Assembly: GCA_902775555.1 (NCBI GenBank)
Contig: CACYMQ010000002.1
Location: 106,794-139,638, forward strand
Reading direction: 5' to 3'
Source of the DNA: an uncultured Lachnospiraceae bacterium
Lineage (GTDB): Bacteria; Bacillota; Clostridia; Lachnospirales; Lachnospiraceae
Length of the DNA stretch: 32,845 bases
The position numbers and the translations under genes were made by a program. Below, one piece after another: positions 14,726-22,014 of this stretch (positions are counted from its first letter, which is position 1; each line of letters starts with the position of its first letter). The notes beneath the pieces are model-generated. The model did no database searches. It was given only the letters and a program-made list of their open reading frames with translations, and was not told the origin of the DNA.

Positions 14726-17023
14726 TTAAAAAGCTCCGCTGGCATCCCAATAGCCTGTAGGCTTTTTATTGGAATCCCATATTTCATATTTACTTCCGGC
14801 GCCTGCGCCTGAAACACCGCTGCCAGGATTATGAATGATATTGAAATAATAGGTTTTGCCCACCTTAAACACAGGATGATCCACTGCATAGACGTATTTC
14901 CCTGTGGACCCTTTTTTCGTTTTCCCGGTTTCTACCCAGTACCTGGTTCCGTTTGAGTAAGACGGATAGAATTCCGTTAATGTAGCAACAAAAGTGACAT
15001 TTGCCCCTCCTCCGTCATAAAACTGACCGTCGACCATTTTCAGCTCCGAGAAACGTCCGCTATACTTACAGCCGGTTCCGTCCGCACCTATGAAGCTTCC
15101 ATGGAAGGTTCCATCCTCATCAAAATACAGGGTATCCTGACCTTCCGGATAAATACCGTCCGAATACAAACCGTCCGATTCATACCATTGGGAGAAGAAT
15201 CCTGCACCTCTCGGAGTGGAAACATCCGCATAGGACGCGCCGTACTTCGAAGTATCTTTGTCCCATCTGCCGCTGTTTCTGAAGAAATGCCTTTTTTTGT
15301 CGATCCATACCCAGCCCGTTACCATAGCTCCGTTTTTGTCCAGATAATACCAGTCCTTACCGTCCTGTACCCACCCTATACACATGGCCCCGCTCTGCTT
15401 AAAGAAGTACCATTTAGCACCAATCTTAGCCCAGCCGGTAGCCATTGCGCCACTGTTTTTGAAGTAATACCACACGGATCCGAGCTTCCTCCAGCCCGTG
15501 GCCATGATCCCGCTCTTCGGATCCAGATAATACCATTTTTTATTAAGCCGGATCCAACCGGTAACCATTGCGCCATTAGCGTTGAAATAATACCACTTAC
15601 CATCTATACTTCCCCAGCCCGTAAGCATTGCTCCGGTCTTCGGATCCAGATAGTACCATTTATTCTTCAACTCCTTCCAGCCGGTTACGATATTATCATT
15701 CTCCACCAAATACCACTTGCCTTCGATGAAGCTCCAGCCGTCTTTGATATTTTCCTTTACCAGCTCTCCGTTCCCGTTGAAACAATCAATGGAATTGCCT
15801 ATTTTTTTCAATCCGATGGCCATAACACCCGTCGAAGGATCCAGATAATACCAGATGAATTTTATCCCCTTCACCATCTTAAGCCACCCTTTTTTCATGG
15901 TCCCACTGCCCGGATCAAAGTAATACCAGTCATCGTTGTACCTCTTCCAGCCATACTGCATCGACCCGTCAATCAGGCTGAAATAATAGGTTTCATCCCC
16001 CACCTTCTGTATCCCGTTGTTATAAAACTTCTTACGTTCGTAATAGCAGTACTTCTTCCCGTTCTTTTTATACCAAAACTCCGGTTTATACTGGAGCTGA
16101 ACCTTCTTATCTACCGAAAGATTTCTTAATGGCAATACATATGACAGTCCGCTTATATCTCCGAGATAATACGCTTCCCGGAGTAACTCATTTTTTGAAA
16201 TATCCAGGGTAGTGATCTGATTATTCGTACACTGAAGATCACGAAGGACGATACAGGACGATATGTCCAGCGCAGACAGATTACAATAACTGCAATTCAA
16301 TACACTGAGGGAACCGCACCCCGAAAGGTTAATACTCGTCAGATTGGAACAATTTGGAAAGTACAATTCAGTCACATATGTCCCGCTAAGGTTGATACTC
16401 CGAATAGCATACCCGGGATAATTCAGCACTGCCAGTTGAGGACAATTGCCAAGATCCAGATCCACCGGGTCATCCTTATCAAAAGTAAGCTTCCTTAAAT
16501 TGATACATCCGTTGGCATTCAGCTTTTTTAGATCATTTTTTTCACAATTGACAGTGTTGAGCTGGGTTAACCCATGAATATCCAATGTGGTTAGTTTATT
16601 TTCAGAACAGGATAGAGTGTATAGCTTTTCCAGACCCGACAGGTTTAATTCTGTGAGATTGCAGTCAAAACAAAACAACTCCTCCAGATTAGTCATCCCA
16701 CCGAGATCCAATGACCCGATATGCTTCCCGTGGCAATCCAGGTATTTCAGTTTTCTAAAAAGCTTAATTCCGTTAAGGCTTTTGAAATTATATCCATCGG
16801 GCAGAACTATATGAGTGATCGAATCTATTTCATTCTCCATAAGAATCCCATCCTCACATTCAGCATAAAACGTATACGTCAGATATGCCCGAAACATTTC
16901 ATCAGGAAAGTTTTCCTCATTGATCACCACATCAGCTGCATAGGATTTATAGGACGTCACCGAAAGAACACCGGCCAAAAGAAACACACCCAGCAGCACT
17001 CTGAACAACAGTCTTTTCTTCAT
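14726..17023 (-). CDS. Secreted leucine-rich-repeat protein with cell-wall-binding repeats
   Basis: This 765-residue surface protein starts with a signal peptide (cleavage near SYAAD, residue 30) and the INEENFPDEMFRAYL motif that often opens clostridial LRR proteins. About ten leucine-rich repeats of 20-22 residues run to about residue 300, with the pattern LxxLxCSxNxLTxLDIHG. Cell-wall-binding repeats (GWxxxxxKWYYLDPxxGAMxTGW) run from about 337 to 586. The last 175 residues form an unrecognised C-terminal domain. LRRs usually bind protein or carbohydrate partners and the repeats hold the protein to the wall; ligands are unknown. The start follows TTGAGGGGGAAGGAAT, 31 bp after the aroE-aroK stop. 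It is the first of the four surface genes and lacks their shared 140-bp module. Confidence 0.85.
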   Translation of the reverse strand: MKKRLLFRVLLGVFLLAGVLSVTSYKSYAADVVINEENFPDEMFRAYLTYTFYAECEDGILMENEIDSITHIVLPDGYNFKSLNGIKLFRKLKYLDCHGKHIGSLDLGGMTNLEELFCFDCNLTELNLSGLEKLYTLSCSENKLTTLDIHGLTQLNTVNCEKNDLKKLNANGCINLRKLTFDKDDPVDLDLGNCPQLAVLNYPGYAIRSINLSGTYVTELYFPNCSNLTSINLSGCGSLSVLNCSYCNLSALDISSCIVLRDLQCTNNQITTLDISKNELLREAYYLGDISGLSYVLPLRNLSVDKKVQLQYKPEFWYKKNGKKYCYYERKKFYNNGIQKVGDETYYFSLIDGSMQYGWKRYNDDWYYFDPGSGTMKKGWLKMVKGIKFIWYYLDPSTGVMAIGLKKIGNSIDCFNGNGELVKENIKDGWSFIEGKWYLVENDNIVTGWKELKNKWYYLDPKTGAMLTGWGSIDGKWYYFNANGAMVTGWIRLNKKWYYLDPKSGIMATGWRKLGSVWYYFKNSGAMATGWAKIGAKWYFFKQSGAMCIGWVQDGKDWYYLDKNGAMVTGWVWIDKKRHFFRNSGRWDKDTSKYGASYADVSTPRGAGFFSQWYESDGLYSDGIYPEGQDTLYFDEDGTFHGSFIGADGTGCKYSGRFSELKMVDGQFYDGGGANVTFVATLTEFYPSYSNGTRYWVETGKTKKGSTGKYVYAVDHPVFKVGKTYYFNIIHNPGSGVSGAGAGSKYEIWDSNKKPTGYWDASGAF

Positions 17024-18990: not shown

Positions 18991-19422
18991 TCATATGATC
19001 CTTACCCCAAGTTCCACCAGCAGCAGATTTGTTTCCGTCACGCTCAGTCTTCTTACAATGGCATAGGCGATGGCACGGTCCCTTTTCCGATTCATATACA
19101 GCGGAGCATTTTCATTTAAGATCAGCGCCTGGGAGGTTTCTTCCGTTGAAAGCCCCGCTCCTATGCAGAGGCGGATCACTTTATCTCTGCTGGGAATGCG
19201 GTTTCCTTTTATGATCTGGTAATAATAGGACTTTTCCACATCACTGTTCCGTATGATCTCTGCATTGGAAGTATGACGGACTTTATCCAGGGAAAGAAAA
19301 AACGAGCAAAAAGTCCGGGTGTCCTCTTTTACCATTAACTTTTTTGTAAATGAATCAAATCCGTCTTTTCTTTCATTTAACATAAAGAAATCCACAACCT
19401 TCCCGATACACCATTGAAACAT
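18991..19422 (-). CDS. Small helix-turn-helix protein, XRE-like (HTH-A)
   Basis: This 143-residue cytoplasmic protein has an XRE-like helix-turn-helix near residues 52-90 (NAEIIRNSDVEKSYYYQIIKG, then RIPSRDKVIRLCIGAGLS). A helical tail follows with LNENAPLYMNRKRDRAIAYAI and VTETNLLLVELG. It is clearly homologous to the protein encoded at 21580-22014; the two differ most in the first 45 residues. The start is uncertain: GTG 19428, ATG 19422 and ATG 19383 are all possible. ATG 19422 gives the same 69-residue distance to EKSYYYQ as in the paralogue and is chosen, although no good ribosome binding site precedes any of them. The chosen ATG lies in one arm of a perfect inverted repeat. It lies downstream of the kinase gene on the same strand. 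Probably a DNA-binding regulator; targets unknown. Confidence 0.8.
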   Translation of the reverse strand: MFQWCIGKVVDFFMLNERKDGFDSFTKKLMVKEDTRTFCSFFLSLDKVRHTSNAEIIRNSDVEKSYYYQIIKGNRIPSRDKVIRLCIGAGLSTEETSQALILNENAPLYMNRKRDRAIAYAIVRRLSVTETNLLLVELGVRII

Positions 19423-19444
19423 ACACACTCAATTCATGTTTCAA
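19414..19444. promoter_or_regulatory. Perfect 9-bp inverted repeat over the HTH-A start (candidate operator)
   Basis: TTGAAACAT (19414-19422) and ATGTTTCAA (19436-19444) are exact inverse complements separated by 13 bp. They lie just downstream of a TATAAT -10 and the right arm includes the HTH-A start codon. This could be an autoregulatory operator or an mRNA hairpin hiding the start. Confidence 0.55.
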
Positions 19445-19449
19445 AGTGT

Positions 19450-19455
19450 ATTATA
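19450..19455 (-). promoter_or_regulatory. Candidate -10 element of HTH-A
   Basis: A perfect TATAAT reads on the minus strand 28 bp before the chosen HTH-A start. No convincing -35 hexamer lies 16-18 bp upstream, so activation or a kinase-operon transcript may be needed. The sequence is part of ATTATAAT, which also gives TATAAT on the plus strand. Confidence 0.4.
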
Positions 19456-19476
19456 ATGATTGTGGATTTCCATTTG

Positions 19477-19493
19477 GTGGGCATACTGCCCAC
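19477..19493. promoter_or_regulatory. 17-bp perfect palindrome at the kinase stop codon
   Basis: GTGGGCA and TGCCCAC are separated by three bases. The element touches the stop codon of the kinase gene and lies just upstream of the HTH-A -10. There is no T-tract after it, so an operator is more likely than a terminator. Confidence 0.4.
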
Positions 19494-21481
19494 TACTTTG
19501 AATATGACCCGATCAGATTTCCGTCGGTATCATAGATCCTGATGCCGGCGATATTGCTGAAGGCACTGCGGGTCCCGTTGTGTGTATATCTGAGACTGTC
19601 CGTGGATCCGGACCGGATCAGCCCGCGCCCCGTATGAGTCATGGAGTTTCCTTCTTTTTGCAAACAGACTGCCTTATATCCCTTCATACCCTCTGCAGGC
19701 CCCCCGGTAAATGTCAGTCTGATATCCACCTCATCGTGGCTGATCTCCGATACATCAAAATCAACCTTCCAGGATTCCACCCGGGAACCCAGGTCCTCAA
19801 TTCCTGCATACCCGGCCTTCCGAAGGTCATCCAGGTACCTGCGTGTCGTATCATCCGGAGAATTCACATGCTCACGGCAATACTCATATTTACAGTTGTT
19901 TTCCAACTGCTTTGCATCTTCATATCCGTCGGAGAATCCGAACTGCCTGGCGGCCTCCGCATACTTTCCGTTCTTCATCAGTTCCTTCCCCGAAAGATAA
20001 TAGCATTTCTTTCTTTGTGCCCCGGCATCTTTATAGTCCAGGATCGTGAGGAAGAGATCACATGCGGCATCATAGTAGCCGTTTTCCATCAGTTTCATTC
20101 CCTGCCGGTAGTTGCTGCTGTTGATCTCTTCCGTATAATCTCCGCCCTTTTCTCCCAAACCCGTGTAGAACTTCGCCACCGCATCATAGTCCTGCAGTTC
20201 ATTTGCATAGGCCACAAAAGAATCCACCGTATCCTTCCGTATCGTCTCGATCTCACCGCCCTTGGCTTTCATGATCTCAGACATGGAGACCATGATCGAT
20301 ACCGCCTGTTCCTTTTTCCCTGCTTTCATCATATCCTTCACAGACCGGAGCAGCTCCTGGCAGTACCCGGACAGCATATCCCCGTTCCCATCATTCAGAA
20401 CCGTGATGCAGGCCAGGATCGAATTCTTCATATAAGCGTTGTTCGGGGAATTTCTCCACTTCTGTACCAGGGCTTCTGCTTCCGATTGGTGCTGTTTTTT
20501 GTTGAGCTCCCTCTTGCATTTGATCACCTGATCCTTCGTATCCTGATACTCCTGACCGCATATCTCAAACTGTTTTATGGCCTCCTCATACTCTCCTCCC
20601 TCCATCAGTTCCAGGCCTTTTTCGTAGGCGAGATTCTGTACAAAATGCTTTGGATAGATCTTCTCTTTAAAGAAGACTGCTCCCCCCGTGATTAGCACAG
20701 CAGCTGCAAGACCGGCCACGACCCGCCGGAACCATTTGCTTTTCAGTCCGGATCTGATCTTCTCCTTCCTGTGGACACTGTCCGGGATCGACGGATCCCA
20801 GAGATGTCCGATCTTCTCCCGGATCTCCTTAACGCTTCCATACCGCCGGTCCGGCTCAAGCCTGGTTGCCTTATTTACGATCTCCATGGCATGTTTTGAA
20901 TCCGGAAGCATCCGTTCGATCAGCTTCCCCAGCGCGAAAATGTCCGTTCTTTCATCCGACTGGCCAAACCCATACTGTTCCGGTGCTGCAATTCCCTGGG
21001 TTCCGATCAAAACCGTATCCCTTGATTTTTCGCCGATATTCTGTTTTGCCGCATCATAATCGATGATCTTCACGGTACCGTCTTCGGTCACCATGATATT
21101 TGCCGCCTTTATATCTCTGTGAATAATGGGCGGTCTGGCTGAATGGAGATATTGTAGTCCGTCACAGATCTCCAGCAGGATCCTCTTCTTCTCTTCAAAT
21201 GTCAGCTCATTCTTATCCAGAAGCTGATCCAATGTCCTGCCCTGGATCAGTTCCTCGATGACTATCAGTTTTCCTTCCTCCTGCCAGAAGAGATGTATGA
21301 CCGGAAGATTCCTGTGATTATGCTCTTTCAGAAACCGAAAAACCGGAACGCTGTATACAGATAACTCCTTCCTGTAATACATGTGTTCCGTTTCCGGATC
21401 CATCACTATGCTTTTTCCGTCCGAAAGCTCACGCACCTCTGATAACAACGCGCCCCGAACGATATCCTCCAGTTCTCCCAT
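19493..21481 (-). CDS. Membrane Ser/Thr protein kinase-like protein with extracytoplasmic TPR-like repeats
   Basis: The 662-residue protein has an N-terminal protein-kinase fold (about 20-230). Visible motifs are the lysine-strand YYRKEL (K38), catalytic loop HRDIKAANIM (D123, N128), a DYD at 141-143 in place of DFG, and APEQYG at 166. No GxGxxG nucleotide loop is recognisable before K38. One membrane segment (about 253-271, VVAGLAAAVLITGG) follows a basic stretch, so the kinase should be cytoplasmic. The external part has repeats such as GLELMEGGEYEEAIKQFEICG and GKELMKNGKYAEAARQFG, resembling TPR units, and ends in a beta-rich segment. Such architecture is typical of sensor kinases, but the ligand and substrates are unknown. 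Paralogous HTH genes lie on both sides, one downstream in the same direction and one divergent. Confidence 0.85.
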   Translation of the reverse strand: MGELEDIVRGALLSEVRELSDGKSIVMDPETEHMYYRKELSVYSVPVFRFLKEHNHRNLPVIHLFWQEEGKLIVIEELIQGRTLDQLLDKNELTFEEKKRILLEICDGLQYLHSARPPIIHRDIKAANIMVTEDGTVKIIDYDAAKQNIGEKSRDTVLIGTQGIAAPEQYGFGQSDERTDIFALGKLIERMLPDSKHAMEIVNKATRLEPDRRYGSVKEIREKIGHLWDPSIPDSVHRKEKIRSGLKSKWFRRVVAGLAAAVLITGGAVFFKEKIYPKHFVQNLAYEKGLELMEGGEYEEAIKQFEICGQEYQDTKDQVIKCKRELNKKQHQSEAEALVQKWRNSPNNAYMKNSILACITVLNDGNGDMLSGYCQELLRSVKDMMKAGKKEQAVSIMVSMSEIMKAKGGEIETIRKDTVDSFVAYANELQDYDAVAKFYTGLGEKGGDYTEEINSSNYRQGMKLMENGYYDAACDLFLTILDYKDAGAQRKKCYYLSGKELMKNGKYAEAARQFGFSDGYEDAKQLENNCKYEYCREHVNSPDDTTRRYLDDLRKAGYAGIEDLGSRVESWKVDFDVSEISHDEVDIRLTFTGGPAEGMKGYKAVCLQKEGNSMTHTGRGLIRSGSTDSLRYTHNGTRSAFSNIAGIRIYDTDGNLIGSYSK

Positions 21482-21505
21482 ATCTCCCGGTTCTCCGTAT
21501 TAAGA

Positions 21506-21534
21506 TTGAATCCCCAAAAGGAATCCTGTATAAT
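21506..21534 (+). promoter_or_regulatory. Predicted sigma-A promoter of HTH-B
   Basis: The -35 is TTGAAT (21506-21511) and the -10 is TATAAT (21529-21534), with a 17-bp spacer. TTGAAT and the ATTCAA overlapping the end of the -10 (21533-21538) form a 6-bp inverted repeat. The element lies in the 65-98 bp divergent region between the kinase and HTH-B. Confidence 0.75.
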
Positions 21535-21579
21535 TCAAATAGTGTTATGGTTTCATTTTCCAGGGAGTACAAATGTCAT

Positions 21580-22014
21580 ATGGATGCATCCACTACGAAA
21601 CAGTTAGAAGAGATCCTGTCCCATATTCAGGATGAAAAACAGATGGAGAAATTCATGGAACACCCGAAGGTTTCCGACTCCTACCGGGATTTTATCTCTT
21701 ATTATCTTTCCCTTCCATCCACACAGAATCTTACGGATACGGATCTGATCGAAAGAAGCGGCCTGGAAAAATCCTATTACTACCAGATTCGTAAGGGAAC
21801 AAGACATCCCAGCCGCGATAAGGTCCTTCGGCTTTGCATCGGAGGGCATCTGTCCCTGCGTGAGACCACCAGGGCTTTGGAGCTGAACGGCTCTGCACCC
21901 CTTTATCCCAAGAACCGACGGGATATCATACTTACGGTGGCTCTTAATCAGAAGGCCTCCCTGATCGATACGAATCTTCTGCTGGACCAGTACGGCGAAG
22001 AGCCTCTGGCCTGA
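21580..22014 (+). CDS. Small helix-turn-helix protein, XRE-like (HTH-B), paralogue of HTH-A
   Basis: This 144-residue protein shares the core EKSYYYQI.KG.R.PSRDKV.RLCIG..LS..ET with HTH-A. It also shares the tail signatures SAPLYPKNRRDIILTVAL and IDTNLLLDQYG. The XRE-like DNA-binding part spans about residues 52-92. The frame is open to an ATG at 21547, but that codon is only about 6 bases from the predicted transcription start and has no ribosome binding site. The ATG at 21580 follows CCAGGGAGTACAAATGTCAT, a usable though slightly long spacing, so it is chosen. It is divergent from the kinase gene and converges on the acetyltransferase gene 22 bp away. Likely role: regulator of the kinase locus, or kinase substrate; neither is shown. 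Confidence 0.8.
   Translation: MDASTTKQLEEILSHIQDEKQMEKFMEHPKVSDSYRDFISYYLSLPSTQNLTDTDLIERSGLEKSYYYQIRKGTRHPSRDKVLRLCIGGHLSLRETTRALELNGSAPLYPKNRRDIILTVALNQKASLIDTNLLLDQYGEEPLA

Follow-up and report, generated by a model that had tools for sequence, protein, structure and literature searches.

A candidate signaling module of a membrane Ser/Thr kinase and paralogous XRE-like regulators with a palindromic promoter element in Lachnospiraceae

Ser/Thr kinases that act on a DNA-binding activator are known from the PknH-EmbR and AfsK-AfsR pairs, and HipBA is a gene pair of a helix-turn-helix (HTH) protein and a Ser/Thr kinase, the HipA-fold kinase being soluble. The lambda CI protein activates the PRM promoter by contacting sigma from a site near -42. 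Here we describe a locus in a 32,845-nucleotide stretch of DNA from an uncultured Lachnospiraceae bacterium (GenBank assembly GCA_902775555.1, contig CACYMQ010000002.1; the whole stretch is called the window), in which two genes of XRE-like HTH proteins, HTH1 and HTH2, flank the gene of a membrane Ser/Thr kinase, and a 17-bp palindrome, a candidate operator, lies at the HTH2 promoter. The open reading frames and their alignment bore out what a sequence-only reading had noted at this locus: two small paralogous HTH proteins with the shared core EKSYYYQIxKGxRxPSRDKV flank a kinase-like membrane protein of 662 aa, which has an HRDxKxxN loop, a single hydrophobic, predicted transmembrane segment near residue 260 and a repeat-bearing C-terminal part. 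One HTH gene (HTH1) is divergent from the kinase, and the other (HTH2) lies downstream of it on the same strand, also as that reading had it.

The locus resembles two-component systems in having a membrane kinase gene beside a presumed DNA-binding partner, in the multiple paralogous pairs of some genomes and in probable autoregulation. It differs from them in its Hanks-type Ser/Thr kinase and in the lack of a receiver domain in the partner; no histidine-kinase or receiver family was among the Pfam matches of the kinase or the HTH proteins. EmbR and AfsR are larger and belong to other families, whereas the presumed regulators here are small and XRE-like. HipBA likewise pairs an HTH with a Ser/Thr kinase, but the kinase here is of the Hanks type with a membrane segment, and no HipA family was among its matches shown, PF00069 being matched instead. 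With CI at PRM the locus shares the XRE fold, a 17-bp dyad, a predicted activator position near -42 and probable autoregulation, and with the XRE controller proteins C.AhdI and C.Esp1396I it shares the XRE fold; unlike it, all three belong to a phage or restriction-modification context and have no kinase. The fold families are already known, and so is class II activation. For Gram-positive bacteria, the excerpted text of PMC4601284 describes eukaryotic-like Ser/Thr kinases that number few in each genome and have pleiotropic targets. The PASTA kinases PrkC and Stk1 treated there are alike in being membrane kinases of this kind, with transcription factors among the substrates; unlike the kinases of that excerpt, the one here belongs to a subfamily without a PASTA match and is linked to an HTH gene. 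In the literature searched (titles and the openings of abstracts, with few subscription journals and no preprints), no description was found of a Hanks kinase and an XRE protein that form a dedicated pair and have an operator of their own, and a term search of PMC12565409, which deals with XRE palindromes, returned neither GTGGG nor a kinase.

Conservation of the HTH-kinase linkage

Relatives were drawn from a family set of 120 genomes, 48 of them with HTH matches (low-scoring ones included), and a genus set of 61 genomes, 36 with matches. Outside G000, the 3.0-Mb genome that carries the window, all 53 matches of the genus set were fetched, as were those of the family set, 67 in number, except for six with the poorest E values (2e-4 to 7e-4); G labels denote genomes and L labels the fetched loci. 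When HTH frames of 101-210 aa with a score of at least 50 were counted (which excludes a frame of 71 aa in L167), a kinase lay within 300 nt of 74 of the 94 stand-alone HTHs, 33/41 in the family set and 41/53 in the genus set, and restriction to loci with an adjacent kinase or more than 1 kb on both sides gave 74/89. The chance expectation was about 2% per 8.4 kb (within 4 kb), given a density of 131 kinase matches over the roughly 54.6 Mb of 21 genomes. The 74 linked pairs comprised 45 divergent ones, 21 with the HTH before the kinase, 5 with the kinase before the HTH and 3 convergent. Across the phylum few genomes have the HTH family (14 of 299, two from the same family as the window), and in other families 8 of the 10 HTHs scoring at least 50 share a locus of about 3.4 kb with a kinase. 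The sequence-only reading had named an HTH family mostly without the kinase as the outcome that would speak against its module; these counts show the opposite, and the module withstands that check. Both HTHs of G401, a member of the same family, also have a kinase, and no kinase accompanied three other-family HTHs scoring about 44 or one G401 frame of score 48, which is of the macro-domain type described below. Twenty family-set HTHs were counted apart (19 longer than 210 aa and one low-scoring frame of 156 aa); within 300 nt of these no kinase is present, and the one kinase seen lies 551 nt from its HTH. Conversely, in the 21 genomes used for the chance expectation, 11 kinases score above 75 bits with a Pfam match that starts no earlier than position 49; 9 of these have an HTH at a distance of about 1 kb or less, the exceptions being G125:C1:40697 and G161:C245.

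The PF00069 match of the window kinase (2.3e-25) begins at profile position 51, the first 50 positions being absent, and its DFG motif reads DYD. Beyond the transmembrane segment the structure model has a confidently predicted TPR-like solenoid (residues 277-570) and then a terminal beta domain (571-661); the Pfam scan gave weak TPR matches, and Foldseek returned TPR proteins at low TM-scores. No PASTA family was among the Pfam matches, and the PASTA/PrkC model NF033483 reached 86.8 bits against a cut-off of 450. We then considered the 77 kinases encoded no more than 1.3 kb from an HTH gene. The catalytic Lys is present in 72 of them, and the HRD Asp, the Asn and the DFG-position Asp in all 77; a transmembrane segment is predicted in 70. 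All but one (L096) separated, with a support of 0.989, from a set of 11 G000 kinases that are not linked to an HTH. At the level of sequence, these results showed that the HTH-linked kinases form a Hanks-type subfamily of their own, with the catalytic residues kept and mostly with a predicted membrane anchor, and that the HTH-kinase partnership is conserved in relatives.

HTH1 and HTH2 are 38% identical overall and nearly identical in the recognition region. Both fall below the Pfam gathering scores, HTH1 with 16.7 bits to HTH_3 (cut-off 23) and HTH2 with 16.7 bits to HTH_31 (cut-off 27), and NCBIfam gave no matches or weak unrelated ones. The AlphaFold (AF2) model of HTH1, with a predicted local distance difference test score of 86, has a Cro/CI-type fold, and approximately residues 33-105 match XRE HTH domains. 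Judged by their sequences, the two proteins are divergent members of the XRE/Cro-CI group. An N-terminal Thr is kept in 73 of 82 members of the HTH family and sits in a low-confidence part of the model; we infer that it is a candidate phospho-acceptor site. G000 has a third HTH paralogue on another contig, which begins two bases past the stop codon of another kinase.

The palindromic promoter element

The palindrome was first noticed by eye when the HTH2 upstream region was compared with L019 and L020. It is a 17-bp sequence, GTGGGCAgtaTGCCCAC, at 19477-19493, and lies 21 bp before the TATAAT of HTH2, a promoter with no -35 box. The exact form GTGGGCAN3TGCCCAC occurs in six copies in the 61 congeneric genomes, all within about 130 bp of an EKSYYYQ-type HTH gene, and the reversed control gave none. 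A TATAAT follows exactly 21 bp downstream in the window, at the first site of L149 and in L153, and likewise on the other strand in L150; the second site of L149 is spaced 20, and L161 has TACATT at 21. Upstream regions of 98 HTH genes were compared, 23 of them class A (EKSYYYQ-type) and 75 others. The relaxed form GTGGGCN5GCCCAC was found in 11 of the 23 and in 0 of the 75 (p 1.2e-8). Combined with a -10 element, the relaxed palindrome is present in 14 of the 61 genomes (control 0), and this promoter form occurs in 12 of 15 genomes with an EKSYYYQ-type HTH vs 2 of 46 without one (Fisher 2e-8).

The distance between the palindrome and the -10 element is nearly fixed. With 18-22 nt allowed, it is 21 in 27 of 29 site-directions and 20 in two (three second parses excluded). 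A scan of the 98 regions that was blind to the arms, taking any 7-3-7 dyad with a -10 element, found a spacing of 21 nt in 13 regions; no other spacing between 5 and 59 nt was seen in more than 4. Among these 13 regions, ten have a palindrome of the GTGGGC type, of which three had been known before the scan, and the scanned set includes the regions in which the motif was first sighted. In 25 distinct sequences the -35 slot is occupied by ACCAAA, ACCATT and similar hexamers with 1-2 of 6 matches to TTGACA, so that the promoter looks activator-dependent. The dyad centre lies 30 nt before the -10 element, which would place it at about -42 given the usual start position; with the start so predicted, the site is centred where a CI-type class II activator binds, at a promoter without a good -35 element. 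These data suggest that the palindrome at the HTH2 promoter is likely an operator. The sequence-only reading had sought the regulatory logic in TTGAA/TTCAA half-sites; that logic is supported in a changed form, as a conserved palindrome at the HTH2 promoter, and not through those half-sites.

We also examined which genes follow the site. In nine divergent EKSYYYQ-type loci with the 3' side of the kinase assembled, the site and the kinase end are no more than 250 nt apart in 8 (the window, L149, L153 and L155-L159) and further apart in L154. The next gene is HTH2 in the window, L149, L153 and L155, a short lipoprotein-like gene in L156, a multi-transmembrane zinc-ribbon protein gene in L158 and the gene of a secreted-looking protein in L159; in L157 a protein similar to the zinc-ribbon protein of L158 is encoded further downstream. 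Elsewhere the site precedes genes of related multi-transmembrane proteins (L149, L168, L242), of lipoprotein-like proteins (L149, L235) and, by eye, of a protein with cell-wall-binding repeats (L233), and no clear gene followed it in the stretch examined of L154, L215 and L218. Taken together, these results showed that a 17-bp palindromic promoter element, as recognized from sequence, is present at HTH2 and, among relatives, at genes that encode surface or membrane proteins. Probably this is a DNA switch that turns on one HTH and, in relatives, cell-surface protein genes.

Some observations on these downstream regions stand by themselves. The multi-transmembrane proteins behind the element (L149, L157, L158, L168, L242) start like MNRExxF..N.KW; the L158 member has zinc ribbons, and the L020/L149 member has no Pfam match. 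Riboswitches of the c-di-GMP-I class directly follow operator-type promoters at L150:2937-3033 (+) and L149:8435-8510 (+), the latter before a multi-transmembrane protein gene, and joint control by HTH and c-di-GMP is possible at these two loci. On contigs C34 and C37 of G121 (L215, L235, L239), operator-type promoters lie near resolvase-like and lipoprotein-like genes. Two of these promoters are repeated on a second contig, and the HTH of that genome has another recognition type; the G121 sites possibly belong to a mobile element with its own regulator.

A possible mechanism and its alternatives

On balance, we favor the reading that the locus encodes a dedicated module of a membrane kinase and a transcription activator. 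HTH1 would be made from an ordinary promoter, and its dimer would bind GTGGGC-N5-GCCCAC and activate HTH2 and other targets, such as surface genes, from about -42 through a sigma contact, as lambda CI does at PRM. HTH2, with its nearly identical recognition region, would bind the same site and either amplify or limit the response. The external domain of the kinase would sense an envelope signal, and the kinase would set HTH activity by phosphorylation, with the conserved N-terminal Thr as the candidate site. We infer both steps, HTH-palindrome binding and phosphorylation of the HTHs by the kinase. If this is true, Ser/Thr kinase signaling would gain a logic like that of two-component systems through a dedicated regulator linked to the kinase gene and through a defined operator, and the system would be directly testable, with one kinase, one or two regulators and one 17-bp site.

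A wider proposal, which we hold tentatively and with some doubt, is that a membrane Hanks subfamily and its XRE partners are a Ser/Thr-kinase equivalent of two-component systems, in which phosphorylation of the conserved N-terminal Thr switches class II activation and co-evolution of recognition helix and operator gives each pair its own palindrome and insulates the pathways. Such an equivalent would be frequent in one family and occur here and there across the phylum. HTHs of the RYGYKLLSGEKHT types have TTCCCACTGTATCGGTGGGAA-like palindromes at nearly the same position (L077, L176 and L181, a minority of 15 regions), and at nearly the same position L187 and L188 have TAGTGTCAAGTTTTGACACCA-like palindromes and L178 and L179 have AGTCAACAGCAATTGCTGACT. 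This covariation of recognition region and palindrome is suggestive only, because each group has two or three loci.

Distances among HTHs and among kinases correlate (Mantel r 0.74-0.80, reached by 0 of 2000 permutations), which favors the module, with shared species history left in. That limit and the makeup of the arm-blind scan set weigh against the activator module, as do several further points. The kinase-domain part of the structure model is of low confidence, and the conserved N-terminal Thr could be a helix cap. CCCACN7GTGGG occurs in just 2 of 15 RYGYK-type upstream regions. The promoter element is present in G121 and G178, with 6 palindromes, and no EKSYYYQ-type HTH was found there; L151, L162 (with a variant palindrome) and L168 have the site and no kinase in the fetched stretch. 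No such palindrome lies upstream of HTH1 in the window, L149, L153 or L155. G000 has one promoter-form site only, at HTH2, and bare palindromes with up to two mismatches are found there at 8 places vs 6 in the reversed control. The one-mismatch palindromes of G000 (contigs C5 and C42) both lie within coding frames, and L160 has a site and no kinase in view, its contig stopping 213 nt past the HTH.

The element in G121 and G178 and its absence upstream of HTH1 would fit an unlinked regulator that binds the palindrome and controls HTH2 and the surface genes, the HTHs binding elsewhere or binding proteins. We consider this unlikely, given the presence of the element in 12/15 vs 2/46 genomes with and without an EKSYYYQ-type HTH, the confinement of the exact sites to HTH loci and the different palindromes, at nearly the same position, of some HTHs with other recognition regions. 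It is just as doubtful that the HTHs repress, blocking RNA polymerase by binding near -42 until the kinase relieves the block. Repression is common among XRE proteins, and the palindrome reaches the -35 slot, but that slot has so few matches to TTGACA that the promoter looks activator-dependent, and a repressor would not need the rigid spacing.

A toxin-antitoxin pair like HipBA, with the kinase as toxin and the HTH as antitoxin, would account for the small HTH gene adjoining the kinase, in some loci with frames that overlap or lie a few nt apart. We regard it as quite improbable: the kinase has a Hanks-type domain, a membrane segment and an extra C-terminal domain, the divergent orientation is the most frequent one (45/74), the element precedes surface-protein genes too, and the chromosomal neighbors of the module are ribosomal protein S15 and, by eye, an HtpG-like protein. 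It is highly improbable that the locus is a PD-T4-6 or Stk2-like kinase system against phages, together with a regulator; PADLOC kinase models do match the kinase (best mad6 1.9e-30, PD-T4-6 1e-28), but among the best 25 of 34 matches little extends beyond the kinase domain, and none of three HTHs had a PADLOC match. We think it very improbable, too, that the palindrome is an RNA hairpin or a kinase terminator rather than a DNA site. It lies at most 160 nt from the kinase end in 8 loci, and the copy at L149:7805 is followed by a T-run, but the window copy has none, the distance to the -10 element is near-fixed at 21 bp, and the palindrome also occurs upstream of HTHs with no preceding kinase in the stretch examined (L150, L151, L160, L161, L168).

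Half-sites, hairpin and other features of the window

That the TTGAA/TTCAA pairs are themselves the operators is scarcely credible, despite their similar spacing in both upstream regions. As letters, the pairs that the sequence-only reading saw in both regulator promoter regions are there (19414-19444 and 21506-21538), and the window has four such pairs, with gaps of 14-26, against 0.61 expected, four being reached in 1 of 100 shuffles. As conserved sites they did not hold up: with gaps of 10-30, pairs occur in 2 of the 23 class-A upstream regions, both in the window, and in 1 of the 75 others, which leaves 0 of the 21 class-A regions outside the window. The 21506 pair is largely a sigma-70-like promoter plus an overlap (TTGAAT at 21506 and TATAAT at 21529, 17-spaced); between 18800 and 22150, 6 promoter-like sites were found vs 5.0 expected from shuffles. 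The pair at 19414-19444 forms the interior of an 86-nt hairpin, and a 143-nt stretch there folded at -46.7 kcal/mol (z -5.0). On the promoter, the hairpin and the 0/21 related regions, the pairs were rejected as probable operators.

The hairpin (19386-19471) covers the -10 element and leader of HTH2, and both arms would be present only in read-through transcripts from the kinase; it might limit HTH2 translation from read-through RNA. No second copy was found in G000, where matches were short and weak, and a mobile repeat was rejected on this single copy. A conserved RNA element was also rejected, the L020 fold being different and weaker (z -2.64).

The features of the locus are listed in Table 1. 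ATG 21580 is the more likely start of HTH1, because the proteins of relatives begin MDESTTK, and ATG 19383 is the more likely start of HTH2. A leucine-rich-repeat protein with choline-binding repeats is encoded near the module at 14726-17023 on the minus strand (PF19127, PF12799).

Table 1. Positions of the module genes and of putative control elements in the window
Feature	Position	Strand	Basis or remark
HTH1, 144-aa XRE-like regulator, recognition region LEKSYYYQIRKGTRHPSRDK	21580..22014	+	Open reading frame, start check, AF2 model
HTH1 promoter-like TTGAAT-17-TATAAT	21506..21534	+	10/12 matches
Membrane Ser/Thr kinase, 662 aa	19493..21481	-	Open reading frame, Pfam, transmembrane and structure prediction
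Candidate operator, perfect palindrome, minus-strand reading GTGGGCAGTATGCCCAC	19477..19493	.	Overlaps last base of kinase stop codon
HTH2 -10-like TATAAT, exactly 21 bp past palindrome; ACCAAA in -35 slot	19450..19455	-	
HTH2, 130-aa XRE-like regulator, recognition region VEKSYYYQIIKGNRIPSRDK	18991..19383	-	Open reading frame; open frame extends to GTG 19428
Long inverted repeat/hairpin, ends just before HTH2 ATG	19386..19471	-	Encloses TTGAA/TTCAA pair 19414-19444

Among more distant HTH relatives, macro-domain proteins were seen by eye in about 12 genera of the family; their C-terminal part is a distant form of the HTH, and no kinase is adjacent. Examples are found in L094-L114, such as L094:3998-5104 (-), for which PF01661 was confirmed, and by eye about 12 of the 20 HTHs counted apart carry a macro domain. 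These macro-HTH proteins are possibly ADP-ribose-linked regulators. At L107:3824-4882 (-), the HTH domain is present twice in tandem in a single frame of 353 aa, and a kinase lies at a distance of 551 nt.

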